Of a stretch of DNA of 64,000 bases, positions 50,191-60,599 are shown piece after piece. The DNA comes from an uncultured SAR86 cluster bacterium (GTDB lineage Bacteria; Pseudomonadota; Gammaproteobacteria; Magnimaribacterales; D2472), in the NCBI GenBank assembly GCA_902632555.1, contig CACPCZ010000002.1, forward strand, positions 1 to 64,000. Direction: 5' to 3'. Numbering within the stretch: position 1 is the first letter of the stretch; the number at the start of each line of letters is the position of its first letter. The notes beneath the pieces are model-generated. The model had not been told where the DNA came from and ran no database searches. It saw only the letters and a program-made list of their open reading frames with translations. Made by a program: the position numbers and the translations under genes.

Positions 50191-51435
50191 TTATCTTAAA
50201 AATCCAGACCATGATGGCTCTCTCACAGCTCCATTTTTTGCAGGGAGCCTAAATCTAGCTCCACTAAGCGTAACACCTGCAAGTAGACCCATACCACTGT
50301 CTTTAATAGCGTAAACTATAACATTTCCATTAGGTGAAATACTAGGTGATTCATCCATTTGCGAGATTGTTAAGGGCCTTATAAAGTTTTCATCAAAGTA
50401 CTTCATTGCAATTTGAAAATTTGAGTTCGTCCTATGTACAAAAACAATTCCGTCACTATTTGGTAAATAAGAACCTTTGGCATTGTAATTACCATCAAAT
50501 GTAATTCTTTTTGGTTTTGCATTGTATTTCCTCAGATCTAATTCGTATAGTTGTGGTGAGCCAGATCTTCCTGAGGTAAACATAATCTTTGAACCTTTTG
50601 GAGACCATGTAGATTCAGTATCAATTGAATAGTGATTTGTGAGTCGTGTTAAATTTTTATTAGTCAAATTTAGAATATATATTTCTGCATTTCCATCTTG
50701 ATAAAGCGTTAGGGATAAAAACTTCCCATCTGGTGACCATGCAGGAGAACTAATCTGATTTTTATTTTCAATTACAATTTCTCTTTCACCATTTGCTATA
50801 TTTTGAATAAACACTTGTGCCATTCCTGTTTCAAAAGAAACATAAGCAACTTTTCTCGAATCAGGCGACCATGTTGGAGAGATAATTGGCTCAGAACTTT
50901 CAAGTAAAATTTGTTCATTCTTACCATCCGCATCTGCAACAATCAGCTTGTAATTTCTGTCTTGAGTTACATATAAAATTTTTGTAGATGCTATGCCTTT
51001 GATGCCTGTAATTTCTTCATAAATTCCATCACTAACGTAGTGCGCGAGTTGTCTATTTTTGTTTGGAATTCCATAAACAGTTGAGGTCCTTATTTTAGAA
51101 CCTTTTCTGATGTCATAGACTTCATAGATGATATCTCCATTAAGAACGCTACCCAAAACTAAATAATCAATATTCAAGATTCTAAAATCATTAAAAATAA
51201 TTTCGCTTTCTTTTGAAGGAATCGATAAAAGCTCTGAACTGGTAAAAACTTTAAATTCACCAGATCGCTTTAAATTATTAATTATTATTCCATGAATTTC
51301 AGATGATAATTTCTCTTCTCCATTAAATTGAACTATTGCAACTTTGTATGGATCATCAGTACCTTTTGTAATTTCCAAGATCAGTTCAGCATAAAGAAAA
51401 CATGGTAAAAAGAATAAAATGAAAAATTTTTTCAT
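50191..51435 (-). CDS. tolB: Tol-Pal system protein TolB
   Basis: WSPDSRKVAYVSFE repeats; between tolA and pal. Confidence 0.98.
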   Translation of the reverse strand: MKKFFILFFLPCFLYAELILEITKGTDDPYKVAIVQFNGEEKLSSEIHGIIINNLKRSGEFKVFTSSELLSIPSKESEIIFNDFRILNIDYLVLGSVLNGDIIYEVYDIRKGSKIRTSTVYGIPNKNRQLAHYVSDGIYEEITGIKGIASTKILYVTQDRNYKLIVADADGKNEQILLESSEPIISPTWSPDSRKVAYVSFETGMAQVFIQNIANGEREIVIENKNQISSPAWSPDGKFLSLTLYQDGNAEIYILNLTNKNLTRLTNHYSIDTESTWSPKGSKIMFTSGRSGSPQLYELDLRKYNAKPKRITFDGNYNAKGSYLPNSDGIVFVHRTNSNFQIAMKYFDENFIRPLTISQMDESPSISPNGNVIVYAIKDSGMGLLAGVTLSGARFRLPAKNGAVREPSWSGFLR

Positions 51436-52058
51436 GACGGATTAAATTTAATTTGAATATTTTTAAAATTAGTCTGATATAAACTGACAGAGATCGATTC
51501 AAAGAAATTGAAAGTTTCAAGACGCTCAACTGCTTTTAATGCTGAGTTATCAAATCTAATATTTCCACTACTTTGTATTAAATTTACTTTAATGATTCTT
51601 CCATTTTTATTTATAGTTAATCTCATTAGGCACTCTAGCCCTTCTTGAATATTGATTGGTTTCCTCCATGCAGATTGAATATTAGAAATTATCATAGAGC
51701 TGTATAGGTCAATTTTATCCTGATCAGACTTATCTTGAAGTAAAGTATCTTCATTTAGTAAATCTTGAATATCTGAGATATTTACCGATTTTTCGAAAGA
51801 AATTTCATTTAGGATTGTTTCTTGAATTAATGGAGTACTTTGATCATTTGTTTTATCGACTGCAATATCTGAATTAAGTTCTTTTGGAACAGGTTTTGTT
51901 TGTTTTTGCTCAAACAATAGATTTACATTTATAGGATTGCTGAGAATTGACCTATCAATTTTTTCAAAATAAAAGAAGCCAAATAAATAAACTATTATAA
52001 GGGCATGAATTACGAAAGAAATAAATGAAGCCTCTAAATATCTTGTATTAATCTGCAT
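51432..52058 (-). CDS. tolA: Short TolA-like protein
   Basis: ORF 51432..52094; likely start MQINTRYLEASFISFVIHALIIVYLFGFF; C-terminal domain WRKPINIQEGLECLMRLTINKNGRIIKVNLIQSSGN. Confidence 0.88.
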   Translation of the reverse strand: MQINTRYLEASFISFVIHALIIVYLFGFFYFEKIDRSILSNPINVNLLFEQKQTKPVPKELNSDIAVDKTNDQSTPLIQETILNEISFEKSVNISDIQDLLNEDTLLQDKSDQDKIDLYSSMIISNIQSAWRKPINIQEGLECLMRLTINKNGRIIKVNLIQSSGNIRFDNSALKAVERLETFNFFESISVSLYQTNFKNIQIKFNPS

Positions 52059-52470
52059 ATCCTGTAGTAACAATTCCAATTTTAGATATTCCAATACTCT
52101 GAACTGATGCCATTGCTTTGGCTACATAATCAAAGGAAGCATCTTTGTCACTTTGAAAGACAACTTCAATTTCAGGATTCGCTTCAAAAATGACTTCTGA
52201 CTTTCTTTTAAGCTCCTCTAGATTTATGCTAAGTGATTCATCGCCCACATTAATAAAATATTCTCCCTTTGCATTGATTGATATAACCAAAGGTTCACTT
52301 TGAATGCTCATTTTTGTTGTATCAGTCTTTGGCAAATTTACTTCTATGCCTTGAATGAGCAATGGGGACAAAACCATAAAAATAATTAATAGTACGAGCA
52401 TTACATCAATATAAGGAACAACATTAATTTCAGCTTTTAAGTTTTTCTTCTTACCAAGCCTATATATCAT
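52048..52470 (-). CDS. tolR: Tol-Pal protein TolR
   Basis: EINVVPYIDVMLVLLIIFMVLSPLL. Confidence 0.97.
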   Translation of the reverse strand: MIYRLGKKKNLKAEINVVPYIDVMLVLLIIFMVLSPLLIQGIEVNLPKTDTTKMSIQSEPLVISINAKGEYFINVGDESLSINLEELKRKSEVIFEANPEIEVVFQSDKDASFDYVAKAMASVQSIGISKIGIVTTGYAD

Positions 52471-53135
52471 TTTTTATTTGATTGTTTATAAAAAATACTC
52501 GCCAATTCTTCAGCAAAAATAAGTGTATTTTGACTTATTGACTCTGATTCAGATGTGAACTTGTTAAAAGCTATTACTGCTGGTATTGCAGCAAATAGTC
52601 CCATTCCAGTAGCAATTAGTGCTTCCGAAATACCTGGCGCAACAGCATTGATTGTTGCCTGTGTTGCATCTGACAATCCTTGAAATGATGTCATTATTCC
52701 CCAAACTGTTCCCAGGAGTCCTACATAAGGACTTACAGAACCAACGTTAGCTAAAAAAGACAAGTGTTTGTTCATCTCTTCTTCATCGGATGCTATTGAA
52801 ACTCTCATAGTTCTGCTGATGCTTTCAAGGTCAAATTGATCAAAGTTTTCTGGTGAAACTGAATTTTTATAATCTGAATAAGAATTTTTGAATAAATTTA
52901 TTGCTCCATAGCTAATTCTATTTTTATTTATTTTAGAAAAAAGATTGTCTAGATCTTTTTCAGTCCAAAACTCTTTCAAAAATGCATTATTAATATCTTT
53001 AATTTTTTTAAAAAATCTATACCTCTCAATAATAATTATCCAAGACAATATAGATGCTATAAAAAGCAATACCATTACAGCCTTTACTACAATGCCTGCC
53101 TCAAGAAAAAGATTTAATACTGAAATATCGTCCAT
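52467..53135 (-). CDS. tolQ: Tol-Pal protein TolQ
   Basis: SPYVGLLGTVWGIMTSFQGL...ISEALIATGMGLFAAIPAVIAFN. Confidence 0.98.
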   Translation of the reverse strand: MDDISVLNLFLEAGIVVKAVMVLLFIASILSWIIIIERYRFFKKIKDINNAFLKEFWTEKDLDNLFSKINKNRISYGAINLFKNSYSDYKNSVSPENFDQFDLESISRTMRVSIASDEEEMNKHLSFLANVGSVSPYVGLLGTVWGIMTSFQGLSDATQATINAVAPGISEALIATGMGLFAAIPAVIAFNKFTSESESISQNTLIFAEELASIFYKQSNKK

Positions 53136-53139
53136 AACT

Positions 53140-53553
53140 TTACCTGTTGAAAATTAATAATAAATCATCTGGGAATTTTTTTGGTTTTTTTGTTATTAAA
53201 TCTATAAAACAAACTTCAACTTCTCCTGTTGCATATTCATGTCCACTATGAGTGTTTATTATTTTTTGGGTAAAAATCATCCTAGCATCTGATTTTTTAT
53301 CAACAGATGACTCAACTGTAATTTCATCACCTAACTCTGCAGCGGCAATATATTTTATGTTAATGCCTTTTATAACAAACGCTTTATTTTGCTGTTTAAG
53401 TGCTCTTTGAGATACATTATTTTTTGATAAAAATTCAGATCTTGCTCTTTCAAAAAATTTTATATAATTTGCATGATATACAACACCTTGAAAATCAGTA
53501 TCTTCAACATATATTTTGAAATTTAATGGCTTACACTTGATAATTTTTTTCAT
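53140..53553 (-). CDS. ybgC: Acyl-CoA thioesterase YbgC
   Basis: VYVEDTDFQGVVYHANYIKFFERARSEFL-type motif (IYVEDTDFQGVVYHANY). Confidence 0.96.
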   Translation of the reverse strand: MKKIIKCKPLNFKIYVEDTDFQGVVYHANYIKFFERARSEFLSKNNVSQRALKQQNKAFVIKGINIKYIAAAELGDEITVESSVDKKSDARMIFTQKIINTHSGHEYATGEVEVCFIDLITKKPKKFPDDLLLIFNR

Positions 53554-53956
53554 GCATCTCTATGTCCTCTTGAAATAGTTCAAGAATAATTTGAATAAAG
53601 TCAGGCCATAATAAATCTAAAGTAACTAGATTATTTTTAATGTTTTTGTTTAACGTGCTTGCAAGAATCCTAACTTTAATTGGTCTATTATTAAATTTAT
53701 AAACCAAAGCGGGTTTCATATTTTGGCCAGAAGACGAAGCAATTACTTGATCCCACCAGTCTGGTCTAGGTTCTGCTCCAGTTCCATAGGCTTTGCATTC
53801 AATACACCATGTTCCTAACATCAAGTCAGGAAGCTCTTTTGTTCTAGTCTGCTCTAGAATCCTTTTAACTGGATTCTTGAGATTTAAATCTTCGATAAGG
53901 GCATTAGCGATTTGCCTTTCAAATGCAGCGCCTTTATTTCTTGAATTAATAGACAA
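53531..53956 (-). CDS. Putative PD-(D/E)XK nuclease, Hjc/phage-type Holliday junction resolvase-like
   Basis: NKGAAFERQIANAL (E), ELPDLML (D), CIECKAYG (ExK) motif spacing; between yebC and ybgC. Confidence 0.7.
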   Translation of the reverse strand: MSINSRNKGAAFERQIANALIEDLNLKNPVKRILEQTRTKELPDLMLGTWCIECKAYGTGAEPRPDWWDQVIASSSGQNMKPALVYKFNNRPIKVRILASTLNKNIKNNLVTLDLLWPDFIQIILELFQEDIEMHEKNYQV

Positions 53957-53958
53957 AA

Positions 53959-54696
53959 TTATGCCTTAATCTCAAAATTTTCTGGAAACTCTGCGTTGGT
54001 GTGAACCTCTTGCACATCATCTAAATCATCCATAAATTCCATTATATTTAATACCTTTTCTGACATATCTTGGTCTAATTTAACAAGAGTTTCTGCTCTA
54101 AGTGTTAATTCAGCATTAGAATAAACAATATTTTTCTGTTTTAAAGTATTAATAATATCGTTAAATAGATTAACTTCAGTTGTAATTTCAAAAAAGTCCT
54201 CTTCCTCAGATAAGTCTTCTGCACCAATCTCAATTACTAATTCCATTAACTCCTCTTCAGAAAAACTTTTATCTAAATGAATAATTCCCATTTTCTTGAA
54301 AAGATAAGATACCGATCCATCTGTACCAAGATTGCCACCAAATTTAGAAAATGCATGTCTTACATCTGAAACAGTTCTATTTCTATTATCAGACATTGTC
54401 TCGACGAGAATTGCTACACCTCCTGGCCCGTATCCCTCAAAAATAATTTCCTCTAGGGCTCCTGTCTCTCCAGTTCCAGAGCCTTTCTCAATAGCCCTTT
54501 TAATTGTATCTTTTGGCATATTCGCAGAGTTAGCCTTCTCTAATGCTAGTCTTAATCGAGGATTATCATTAGGATCTGGTCCTTCTTTTGCGGCAACTGT
54601 AATTTCTCGGATAACCTTAGTCCATACTTTACCTCTCGAAGCATCCTGTCTTGCCTTTCTGTGTTTGATATTAGCCCATTTAGAATGACCGGCCAT
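53959..54696 (-). CDS. yebC: YebC/PmpR family transcriptional/translation regulator
   Basis: MAGHSKWANIKHRKARQDASRGKVWTKVIREI. Confidence 0.98.
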   Translation of the reverse strand: MAGHSKWANIKHRKARQDASRGKVWTKVIREITVAAKEGPDPNDNPRLRLALEKANSANMPKDTIKRAIEKGSGTGETGALEEIIFEGYGPGGVAILVETMSDNRNRTVSDVRHAFSKFGGNLGTDGSVSYLFKKMGIIHLDKSFSEEELMELVIEIGAEDLSEEEDFFEITTEVNLFNDIINTLKQKNIVYSNAELTLRAETLVKLDQDMSEKVLNIMEFMDDLDDVQEVHTNAEFPENFEIKA

Positions 54697-54699
54697 ATT

Positions 54700-56466
54700 C
54701 TATTCTTCCTTATGCGTACTGATTATTTTCAGCTCATCAAGTTGTTTTTCATCAACTTTACTAGGTGCTTCTGTTAAAAGGCATGCTGCGCTTTGAGTCT
54801 TTGGAAAAGCAATTACATCTCGGATGTTTGTTGTATCAGTTACAAGCATGACAATTCTATCTAAACCAAAAGCTATCCCACCATGAGGCGGACATCCGGA
54901 AGCCAGAGCTTTTAATAAGAAACCAAATTTATTAGTTGCTTCTTCTTTTGAGATCTTAAGGGTCTCAAAAACAGTTTCTTGCATAGATTTATCAAAAATT
55001 CTAAGTGAACCACCTCCGATCTCATAACCATTTAGCACTACATCATACGCGTATGCTAAAGATGTATCAGGATTATTTTTCAATTCATCTGAATTACATT
55101 GTGGCAAAGTAAAAGGATGATGAAGTGGTGTTAGTTCACCATCACTATTAGTTTCAAACATTGGAAAATTAATTATCCAGCACGGAGCCCATTTAGAATT
55201 GTATAAATTTAAGTCCATACCGATTTTCTTAATTAGACTGCTCATTGATAAATTTACAATTGTTTCAGAACCGGCACCAAAGAAGATTAAGTCATCTGAT
55301 TTAACATCTAAATTATTCAATATGCTTGAAACCGTTTCTTTCTTGAGGAATTTTAGTATTGGTGACTGAATGCCATTTTCTATATCTTCAGCATCATTAA
55401 TTTTAATATAAGCTAATCCTTTTGCGCCAAGCTTAGAAACAAATTTGGTATAGTCATCAATTTGACCCCTTGTTAATGAATTTCCACCTGGCACTTTTAA
55501 TGCAACTACCCTCGAATGTGTCTTTTTAGCCGGCTCTGAAAATACTTTAAACTCCTCATCTTTTACTAAATCGGCAATATCTACTAATTTTAGAGGAATC
55601 CTTAAATCAGGCTTGTCACAGCCATATTCATTCATAGCATTATTCCAATCCATTACCTCAAATTTTTCTAACTTGTCGCCACAGAATTCATTGATTATTT
55701 TTTTAATCATTTTTTCACTCACAGACATAATTTCTTCCTGAGTTATAAAAGATGCTTCTATATCAATTTGAGTAAACTCTGGCTGTCTATCTGCTCTTAA
55801 ATCCTCATCTCTAAAGCATCTTGCAATTTGATAATACTTATCAAGACCTCCCATCATTAAAAGTTGCTTGAATAGCTGGGGTGATTGCGGCAATGCATAA
55901 AAACTACCAGGCTGAACTCTACTTGGTAGGATGTAATCTCTGGCTCCTTCTGGTGTCGCTCTTGTCAAAATAGGTGTTTCAATTTCGTGAAATCCACTTT
56001 TTTCAAGATAATTTCTTATCAATGAAGTTATTTTTGATCTGGTGATTATTCTCTCATTCATTTCGGGCCTTCTTAAATCTAGAACCCTATTTTTTAGTCT
56101 TACATCCTCATTTACATCCTGATATTCATCAATTGGAAATACAGGGGTGTTAGCTTTGCTGAGTATGACGATATCAGACACCTCTATCTCAATTTCACCT
56201 GTATGCATATTTTTATTTATAGTTCCTTCTAGTCTTTTTCTTACGCTACCTGAAACTTGAATAACATATTCATTTCTTATTGACTCAGCAATTTTAAAAG
56301 CTTCTTTATTTTCAGGGTTAACAACTGCTTGGCATATGCCTTTGATATCTCTTACGTCTAAGAAAATAACTCCGCCATGATCTCTTCTTCTGTGAATCCA
56401 GCCACAAATTATTACTTCTTCTTTTATGTCTGAAGAAGTTATTTCACCACAGTAATGAGATTTCAT
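54700..56466 (-). CDS. aspS: Aspartyl-tRNA synthetase
   Basis: ICGWIHRRRDHGGVIFLDVRD...RCFRDEDLRADRQPEFTQID...GIAFGLDRIVML. Confidence 0.99.
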   Translation of the reverse strand: MKSHYCGEITSSDIKEEVIICGWIHRRRDHGGVIFLDVRDIKGICQAVVNPENKEAFKIAESIRNEYVIQVSGSVRKRLEGTINKNMHTGEIEIEVSDIVILSKANTPVFPIDEYQDVNEDVRLKNRVLDLRRPEMNERIITRSKITSLIRNYLEKSGFHEIETPILTRATPEGARDYILPSRVQPGSFYALPQSPQLFKQLLMMGGLDKYYQIARCFRDEDLRADRQPEFTQIDIEASFITQEEIMSVSEKMIKKIINEFCGDKLEKFEVMDWNNAMNEYGCDKPDLRIPLKLVDIADLVKDEEFKVFSEPAKKTHSRVVALKVPGGNSLTRGQIDDYTKFVSKLGAKGLAYIKINDAEDIENGIQSPILKFLKKETVSSILNNLDVKSDDLIFFGAGSETIVNLSMSSLIKKIGMDLNLYNSKWAPCWIINFPMFETNSDGELTPLHHPFTLPQCNSDELKNNPDTSLAYAYDVVLNGYEIGGGSLRIFDKSMQETVFETLKISKEEATNKFGFLLKALASGCPPHGGIAFGLDRIVMLVTDTTNIRDVIAFPKTQSAACLLTEAPSKVDEKQLDELKIISTHKEE

Positions 56467-56801: not shown

Positions 56802-58082
56802 ATGTTATTTTCAAAGCTACTTTTACCAACTTTAAAAGATGCACCTCAAGAGGCTGAAGTAGTTAGTCATAAGTTAATGTTACGTGCTGGGATGATTAAA
56901 AAAGTTGCCTCAGGAATATATACATGGCTTCCACTTGGGCTAAAGGTCCTTAAAAAAATAGAAAATATTGTTAGAGAGGAAATGGATGCATCTGGTGCTC
57001 AAGAAGTTTACATGCCAATGGTGCAACCTAAAGAATTATGGGATGAAACAAAAAGATGGGAAAAGATGGGACCAGAGCTTTTAAGAATCCAGGACAGACA
57101 TGAAAGAGATTTTTGTCTAGGGCCAACCCATGAAGAGGTAATCACAGATATTATCAGAGATAATGTAAAAAGTTATAAAGAACTACCGCTAAATATATAT
57201 CAAATACAAACGAAATTTAGAGATGAAGTACGTCCAAGATATGGAATTATGAGGGGAAGAGAATTTCTAATGAAAGACTCTTATAGTTTCAATATTGATG
57301 AAGAATCGCTTCAGGATACATACCTTACTATGCGTAATACTTATAAAAAAGTTTTGGAGCGAATTGGTCTAGATTATAAGATTTCTGCTGCAGACTCTGG
57401 TGCAATTGGTGGAGACAGCTCTGAAGAATTTCATGTCTTAGCAGAAAATGGAGAAGATACTATTGCTATTAGTGACTCATCAGAGTTTGCAATAAATACT
57501 GAGCTTTTATTAAAAGATGGTGAAGAGATAAATTCACTAGAAGGAAAGCCTTCACCAGATGGAAAAGGCACAATTCATATTAAAAAAGGCATTGAAGTTG
57601 GGCATATTTTTAAACTTGGAAAACTTTATGCTGAATCTATGAAAGCTAACGTACTAAATGCTGATGGCAAAGCATCCACATTACACATGGGATGCTACGG
57701 TATTGGTGTATCAAGGCTGGTAGCCGCCGCCATAGAACAAAATCATGATGAAAATGGAATTATTTGGCCGCATAGTATTGCTCCGTTTGATATTAATATA
57801 ATTGCAATAGGTTTTGATAAAGATAAAAAAATTTCATCTGCATCACTAAAATTGTATGAAGATCTGACTGATATGGGTTATGACGTTCTGCTTGATGATA
57901 GAAAAGATGGTTACGGCGCAAAAATGAAAGATTCCGAGCTTATAGGAATTCCTTTAAATATAATTATCGGAAAGTCATTTTTAGATAAGCAAGAAATTGA
58001 ATTAAGAGGAAGGGATGGACAAACATCTTCCAATCCAATTGATGATATTAAAACAATACTAGATTTTTTTAAAAATAAATAA
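56802..58082 (+). CDS. proS: Prolyl-tRNA synthetase lacking the INS editing domain
   Basis: LPLGLKVLKKIENIVREEMDASGAQEVYMP...FRDEVRPRYGIMRGREFLMKD...GCYGIGVSRLVAAAIEQ; 426 aa. Confidence 0.97.
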   Translation: MLFSKLLLPTLKDAPQEAEVVSHKLMLRAGMIKKVASGIYTWLPLGLKVLKKIENIVREEMDASGAQEVYMPMVQPKELWDETKRWEKMGPELLRIQDRHERDFCLGPTHEEVITDIIRDNVKSYKELPLNIYQIQTKFRDEVRPRYGIMRGREFLMKDSYSFNIDEESLQDTYLTMRNTYKKVLERIGLDYKISAADSGAIGGDSSEEFHVLAENGEDTIAISDSSEFAINTELLLKDGEEINSLEGKPSPDGKGTIHIKKGIEVGHIFKLGKLYAESMKANVLNADGKASTLHMGCYGIGVSRLVAAAIEQNHDENGIIWPHSIAPFDINIIAIGFDKDKKISSASLKLYEDLTDMGYDVLLDDRKDGYGAKMKDSELIGIPLNIIIGKSFLDKQEIELRGRDGQTSSNPIDDIKTILDFFKNK

Positions 58083-59591: not shown

Positions 59592-60599
59592 CTATTTAGA
59601 TTTTGAGGTTATATAAGAGGACCTTATTTCTTTGACAAGTTTATTTTTGACTTTTACATTTTCTTTTAGAAATTGACTGGCCTTTGTTTTACCCTGTCCA
59701 ATGCTTTCACCATCAAGCTTATAAAAAGCACCTGATTTCTCAACCAAGCCAAGTTTATTTCCAAAGTCTAAAATCTCACCTTCTTGATTTATACCAAGTC
59801 CGTACATAATTTGAAATTCGGCTTGTTTAAATGGTGGAGAGACTTTATTTTTAACAACCTTTACCCTAGTTTCATTACCAGTTACCTCATCGCCCTCTTT
59901 CACAGCACCTATTCTTCTGATATCTAATCTTACAGAAGAGTAAAACTTAAGAGCATTTCCACCTGTTGTAGTCTCTGGGCTTCCAAACATAACACCAATT
60001 TTCATTCTAATCTGATTAATAAAAACTACTGTTGCACCTGATCTTTGAATGTTGCCAGTTATCTTTCTGAGAGCTTGTGACATTAATCTAGCCTGAAGAC
60101 CTACATGGTGGTCACCCATCTCACCCTCAATTTCAGCCCGAGGAACCAAAGCAGCAACAGAATCAATAATAACCAGGTCAACACTCTTAGACTTAACTAA
60201 CATATCAGCAACTTCTAAAGCCTGTTCGCCTGTATCAGGCTGAGACAAAAGGAGTTCATCAACATTAACACCAAGTTTTTCTGCATATTGAGGATCCAAC
60301 GCATGTTCAGCATCAATGAATGCGCATGTACCTCCTTCTTTTTGGCATTGAGCAATAATTTGAAGCGTTAAAGTTGTTTTACCTGAAGATTCTGGTCCAT
60401 ATATTTCAGTTACCCTGCCTTTTGGAATTCCGCCGATTCCAAGAGCAATATCTAGACCGAGTGAACCTGTTGAAATTGAGGGAATATCAAGATTTTCTCT
60501 ATCACCCATTCTCATAACAGTTCCTTTACCGAAATGATTATCTATATCATTTATTGTGTCTTTAAGAGACTTTCCAGTTGTATCTTTTGATTTAGGCAT
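59592..60599 (-). CDS. recA: Recombinase A
   Basis: [20 protein letters not shown]...[26 protein letters not shown]. Confidence 0.99.

Follow-up and report, generated by a model that had tools for sequence, protein, structure and literature searches.

A predicted phage-type Holliday-junction resolvase in the ruvCAB position of SAR86 bacteria

SAR86 is among the ocean's most abundant bacterial groups, and RuvABC is counted among the core recombination proteins that nearly all bacteria share. Here we describe a gene for a predicted PD-(D/E)XK nuclease that lies where ruvC, ruvA and ruvB would be expected in SAR86 genomes. We propose, with a probability of roughly 0.78, that a phage-type resolvase took the ruvCAB slot and that it cuts the four-way junctions left by RecA, serving as the chromosomal resolvase of SAR86 without a RuvAB motor. 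The reading draws on the locus and its conservation, on the predicted fold of the protein, on the recombination genes missing from SAR86 and on a second bacterial lineage in which a related nuclease sits in the same slot.

The gene between yebC and ybgC and its predicted product

The window (the whole stretch of SAR86 DNA analyzed here, 64,000 nucleotides) keeps the canonical order of aspS, yebC, ybgC, tolQRAB and a pal-like gene, and ruvC, ruvA and ruvB are not among them (Table 1). From two control gammaproteobacteria (G067 and G065) we recovered the order aspS-yebC-ruvC-ruvA-ruvB-tolQ, in line with the preliminary description of the locus as a gammaproteobacterial gene order intact save for the three ruv genes. 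The 141-aa ORF that had been placed between yebC and ybgC was found there, beginning 2 nt past the yebC stop and overlapping ybgC by 23 nt as described, and it contains the motifs that had been quoted for it, namely GAAFERQ, PDLML and CIECKA.

Table 1. Positions in the window of the nuclease gene, its predicted functional codons and the surrounding genes
Feature	Position	Strand	Remarks
Predicted PD-(D/E)XK Holliday-junction resolvase, phage type (PDDEXK_15)	53531..53956	(-)	141 aa, TTG start
Codon E13, predicted catalytic residue, motif GAAFERQ	53918..53920	(-)	invariant in alignments A1 and A2
Codon D44, predicted metal-binding Asp, motif PDL	53825..53827	(-)	invariant in A1 and A3
Codons E53-C54-K55, predicted ExK catalytic motif	53792..53800	(-)	E53 and K55 invariant in A1, A2 and A3
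AAGG, likely ribosome-binding site, 7 nt 5' of the TTG start, within the end of yebC	53964..53967	(-)	read from sequence
yebC, upstream neighbor, left border of the ruvCAB slot	53959..54696	(-)	
ybgC, downstream neighbor, right border of the ruvCAB slot	53140..53553	(-)	
tolQ-tolR-tolA-tolB, conserved downstream operon	50191..53135	(-)	
aspS, conserved upstream gene	54700..56466	(-)	
recA, RecA recombinase, retained	59592..60599	(-)	TIGR02012, 528 bits

Separately, we observed that the proline--tRNA ligase encoded in the window at 56802-58082 (+) has just 426 aa and that the family profiles match it in two pieces, as if the bacterial-type internal editing (INS) domain were missing.

A protein search covered 60 SAR86 genomes from 4 families and 11 genera. 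The nuclease ORF was found in 55 of them, among these every one of the 23 genomes with a completeness of 90% or more, and the gene is single-copy across the order. At each of the 80 named SAR86 loci, yebC is the immediate upstream neighbor and ybgC or tolQ the immediate downstream one, and the conserved neighbors were also seen in all four families; in one family (f4, loci L045-L049) the search found no ybgC after the nuclease gene, which abuts tolQ. The protein of the most distant family is 46% identical to that of the window, with 40 invariant columns, and a pN/pS of 0.115 among 14 sequences, for which synonymous sites are mostly saturated, indicates strong purifying selection. Since 46-99% identity is kept over the four families, together with a fixed slot and purifying selection, the ORF is not a chance reading frame. 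The same selection, combined with order-wide presence and fixed neighbors, shows it to be an old gene under selection that has been inherited vertically in SAR86.

Upon searching Pfam, we found that the window protein matches PF24608 (PDDEXK_15, "Phage putative PDDEXK endonuclease") with 41 bits, above the curated cut-off of 27, as does every one of the 42 sequences in alignment A2. The protein also matches phrog_244 (1e-13), which is annotated as RusA-like Holliday junction resolvase; despite this label, no Pfam match to RusA was found. Neither Pfam (PF01870, E up to 10) nor NCBIfam (NF040854, E up to 1) gave a match to Hjc, neither database gave one to RecU, and no Pfam match to RuvC (PF02075) was obtained, the predicted fold being PD-(D/E)XK instead. 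NCBIfam holds no model for the window protein. Residues E13, D44, E53 and K55 are invariant in A1 (22 sequences) and A3 (52 sequences), with D44 present in at least 90% of A2, and all four are conserved in SAR86 and phage homologs. This E...(P)D...ExK set assigns the protein to the PD-(D/E)XK superfamily.

An AlphaFold model built from a 52-sequence alignment (pLDDT 87.9, pTM 0.85) predicts a mixed beta sheet flanked by helices, as is characteristic of this superfamily. Sequence searches of the PDB with either the single protein or profile A2 returned no relative, so the structural link rests on the AlphaFold model and Foldseek. The first 14 PDB matches in Foldseek were all archaeal Holliday-junction resolvases (best 2wcw, E 4.4e-4, probability 1.00), and the restriction enzyme 3ndh and SSO0001 ranked below them. 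TM-scores to Hjc were moderate, about 0.4-0.5 on the query, and a value near 0.5 between model and Hjc points to the same fold and not to close kinship. The preliminary description of an Hjc-like PD-(D/E)XK nuclease thus fits the predicted fold and does not carry over to the sequence profile, where the ORF failed to match PF01870 and belongs to PF24608; its likeness to Hjc is, as far as the model goes, structural. Compared with archaeal Hjc and Hje (PF01870; 2wcw, 1gef, 2eo0), the SAR86 protein shares the predicted PD-(D/E)XK fold in a single domain of ~120-140 aa with E...D...ExK, and it differs in its want of an Hjc Pfam or NCBIfam match, its bacterial host, its phage-related origin and a conserved WWxQV motif. 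It is a direct family member of the PDDEXK_15/phrog_244 phage nucleases, from which it is set apart by being fixed in the chromosomes of a whole bacterial order, at the ruvCAB position.

Recombination genes missing from SAR86

Profile searches found RuvC in none of the 60 SAR86 genomes; in a class-wide sample of 370 genomes, five of them SAR86, 353 have RuvC. RuvA was likewise found in 0/60 above the cut-off. Every SAR86 genome gave weak RuvB profile matches of at most 36 bits, which we attribute to other AAA+ proteins since the real RuvB of control gammaproteobacteria scores 259-282 bits, and no true RuvB was found in SAR86. Incomplete assembly was ruled out as the cause, as the 23 near-complete genomes agree and several of them are single contigs. 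An intact ruvABC elsewhere, which would have weakened the idea of a non-orthologous replacement of RuvC, was found neither in the genome of the window nor in its relatives. Together with an order-wide nuclease of predicted Hjc fold in the same slot, this supports that idea as well as the suggested loss of RuvAB branch migration.

The loss reaches further than the RuvAB named in the preliminary description. Branch migration in E. coli is served by three systems, RadA, RecG and RuvAB (PMC4786428). RadA/Sms was found in 0/60 SAR86 genomes at 1e-50, a threshold at which E. coli and nine other controls match. Full-length RecG (640-690 bits, frames of ~690 aa) is encoded in families f2, f3 and f4 and in genus g3, and it was not found in any genome of g1, the genus of the window, or of g2, including genomes 95-96% complete. 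Profile matches of ~320-369 bits in g1 and g2, mostly in frames of ~1,100 aa, were read as Mfd. Because RuvAB and RadA are absent order-wide and RecG is absent in g1 and g2, the window's genus and its sister genus g2 are without all three E. coli systems, and RecA is kept. Wigglesworthia and Aquifex have also kept RecA and lost RuvAB (PMC1193525); these two retain RecG, whereas in the SAR86 genus of the window both RecG and RadA are gone too.

So extensive a paring down of late recombination could mean that SAR86 has no dedicated resolution at all, junctions being removed by helicase-topoisomerase dissolution or by replication and the nuclease being peripheral. The loss of three branch-migration systems in the window's genus speaks for this, but it would leave hard to explain why a nuclease with the predicted Hjc fold and a predicted intact catalytic site is conserved across the order in the ruvCAB slot, and we judge it very improbable.

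YqgF (RuvX), in turn, is present in 53 of the 60 relatives and in 23/23 near-complete genomes, and it could act as a junction resolvase in SAR86, possibly a second one. If YqgF resolved junctions, the slot nuclease might be a general structure-selective repair nuclease acting on flaps, forks or nicks, and viral resolvases are described as typically more promiscuous on branched DNA (PMC3864405). YqgF is, however, nearly universal also in genomes that have RuvC. Most genomes combine YqgF with RuvC or RecU, which has been noted to mean that they are not simple analogs (Rocha 2005, PMC1193525). The slot position, the Hjc fold match and the parallel case in f38 described below favor resolution over general repair, and we regard this division of labor as unlikely.

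Phage relatives and a second bacterial lineage

Marine phage contigs hold hundreds of relatives of the nuclease, and outside SAR86 the relatives found are phage or prophage genes, the bacterial family f38 apart. In cultured roseophages the homolog shares a module with genes for a PD-(D/E)XK nuclease, a primase-helicase and an SSB-like protein. In four related roseophages (L262-L264 and L266; CRP-821, CRP-406, CRP-811 and CRP-823), a single position of the replication module is filled from two different subfamilies of small PD-(D/E)XK proteins, and the finding of the CRP-821 type in some and the CRP-823 type in others suggests an interchangeable function. In the nuclease tree, SAR86 forms one clade nested in the phage radiation with 98-100% support. 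The tree is rooted at its midpoint, and the direction of transfer between phage and SAR86 is therefore an inferred one. Taken with the distribution above, the slot nuclease is, by its sequence relationships, of phage type and a trait of the whole SAR86 order. Homologs in two further genomes (G250 and G145) were considered as counter-examples and ruled out, as their neighbors are phage-type genes and both genomes have kept RuvC.

Two phage groups from IMG/VR (L181; L183-L199) branch inside the SAR86 clade, which suggests a later pick-up of the gene by phages. Their nucleases are 50-55% identical to the window protein. We rejected the explanation that these contigs are misfiled SAR86 DNA, since phage lysis and tail genes are present on those that were read and yebC/tol neighbors on none. 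As an observation in its own right, L181 and L183-L199 are possible SAR86 phages that took up a host gene.

The second lineage is f38, another gammaproteobacterial family, represented by two genomes of 1.1 Mb that are 97-98% complete (G093 and G309) and in which RuvC and RuvB were not found. Both have aspS-nudB-yebC followed by a gene for a 104-aa PD-(D/E)XK protein and then ybgC-tolQR. An hhalign probability of 97% relates the 104-aa protein to the SAR86 family; it matches PDDEXK_15 and reaches 19.9 bits with Hjc, a weak match below the cut-off of 21.1. It groups, however, with other phage genes, sharing ~40-49% identity with those of roseophages CRP-823/831 and of Geobacillus phages, and several of these phage relatives are annotated "holliday junction resolvase". 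Common descent of the two bacterial nucleases was rejected, as the nuclease tree excludes a joint clade of SAR86 and f38 (AU p 0.0006), a result to be read with caution given the long branches. SAR86 and f38 also stand apart in the AspS host tree, but their joint placement is compatible with it (AU p 0.167), and the host tree is weak support for independent captures. The best explanation of these data is that ruvCAB gave way to a phage resolvase on two or more occasions, and we regard this double capture into one slot as the strongest evidence for the function of the nuclease.

The same data bear on the possibility that the gene is a phage or defense endonuclease, restriction-like or for superinfection exclusion, that landed in the operon by chance when ruvCAB was lost. 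Its relatives are mostly phage genes and a restriction enzyme, 3ndh, is found lower among the fold matches, as this would predict; a single-copy gene that is vertical across the order, in fixed synteny, with a pN/pS as low as that given above and with no methylase or other defense partner in its operon is not what it would predict, and nor is the independent arrival of another subfamily at this position in f38. We give this possibility very little weight.

Replacement may not be obligatory. With profile A1, no nuclease homolog was found in six other genomes without RuvC and RuvB (G063, G080, G109, G121, G302 and G344), where assembly gaps are possible, and in the stretches read of G121 and G344 no small nuclease of this kind lies beside yebC or aspS. 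If the assemblies are complete, G063, G080, G109, G121 and G344 imply that bacteria can lose RuvC and RuvB and do without such a nuclease.

Proposed function and comparison with known systems

Under the resolvase reading, an ancestor of all SAR86 would have acquired a marine-phage resolvase gene that displaced ruvC, ruvA and ruvB as a block between yebC and ybgC-tolQ; vertical inheritance would since have kept it as the chromosomal resolvase of the order. On the model of Hjc, RecA would form joint molecules, and the nuclease, small, metal-dependent and probably a dimer like Hjc, would bind the four-way junction and nick opposing strands. Without RuvAB, RadA and, in g1 and g2, RecG, it may cut where RecA or spontaneous migration leaves the junction; alternatively, another helicase may move the junction before cutting. 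It is by analogy that we infer junction cleavage, Holliday-junction specificity, dimerization and the role in vivo.

A bolder proposal, which we hold tentatively and at somewhat less than even odds, is that RecA recombination in the window's genus runs on the phage-derived resolvase alone, with no dedicated motor (RuvAB, RecG or RadA), junctions being cut at the point reached through RecA or spontaneous migration, or else being moved by a motor so far unrecognized, and further that capture of a phage resolvase into the vacated ruvCAB slot is repeatable in streamlined bacteria.

The SAR86 protein shares with the RuvABC resolvasome its genomic position and, presumably, the final step of junction cleavage. 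RuvC differs in having a retroviral-integrase-type fold and in working with the RuvAB motor, and none of the three genes is found in SAR86. RecU is, like the predicted SAR86 protein, a PD-(D/E)XK enzyme. It stands in for RuvC in Firmicutes and Mollicutes, a non-orthologous replacement in which RuvAB is kept and RecU adjoins RuvAB in only two genomes of the study (PMC1193525). SAR86 differs from the RecU case in that RuvAB is missing too and the new gene sits in the ruvCAB slot itself.

That an abundant free-living marine order lacks RuvA, RuvB, RuvC and RadA, with RecG missing as well in one genus, suggests that far fewer proteins can suffice for late recombination, and that a core chromosomal job can pass to a phage gene. 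Our literature search found no paper joining SAR86 with ruvC or Holliday junctions. With two independent captures into one operon slot, the predicted function lends itself unusually well to testing, and a cultured SAR86 strain, Magnimaribacter mokuoloeensis HIMB1674, exists (PMC11582366).
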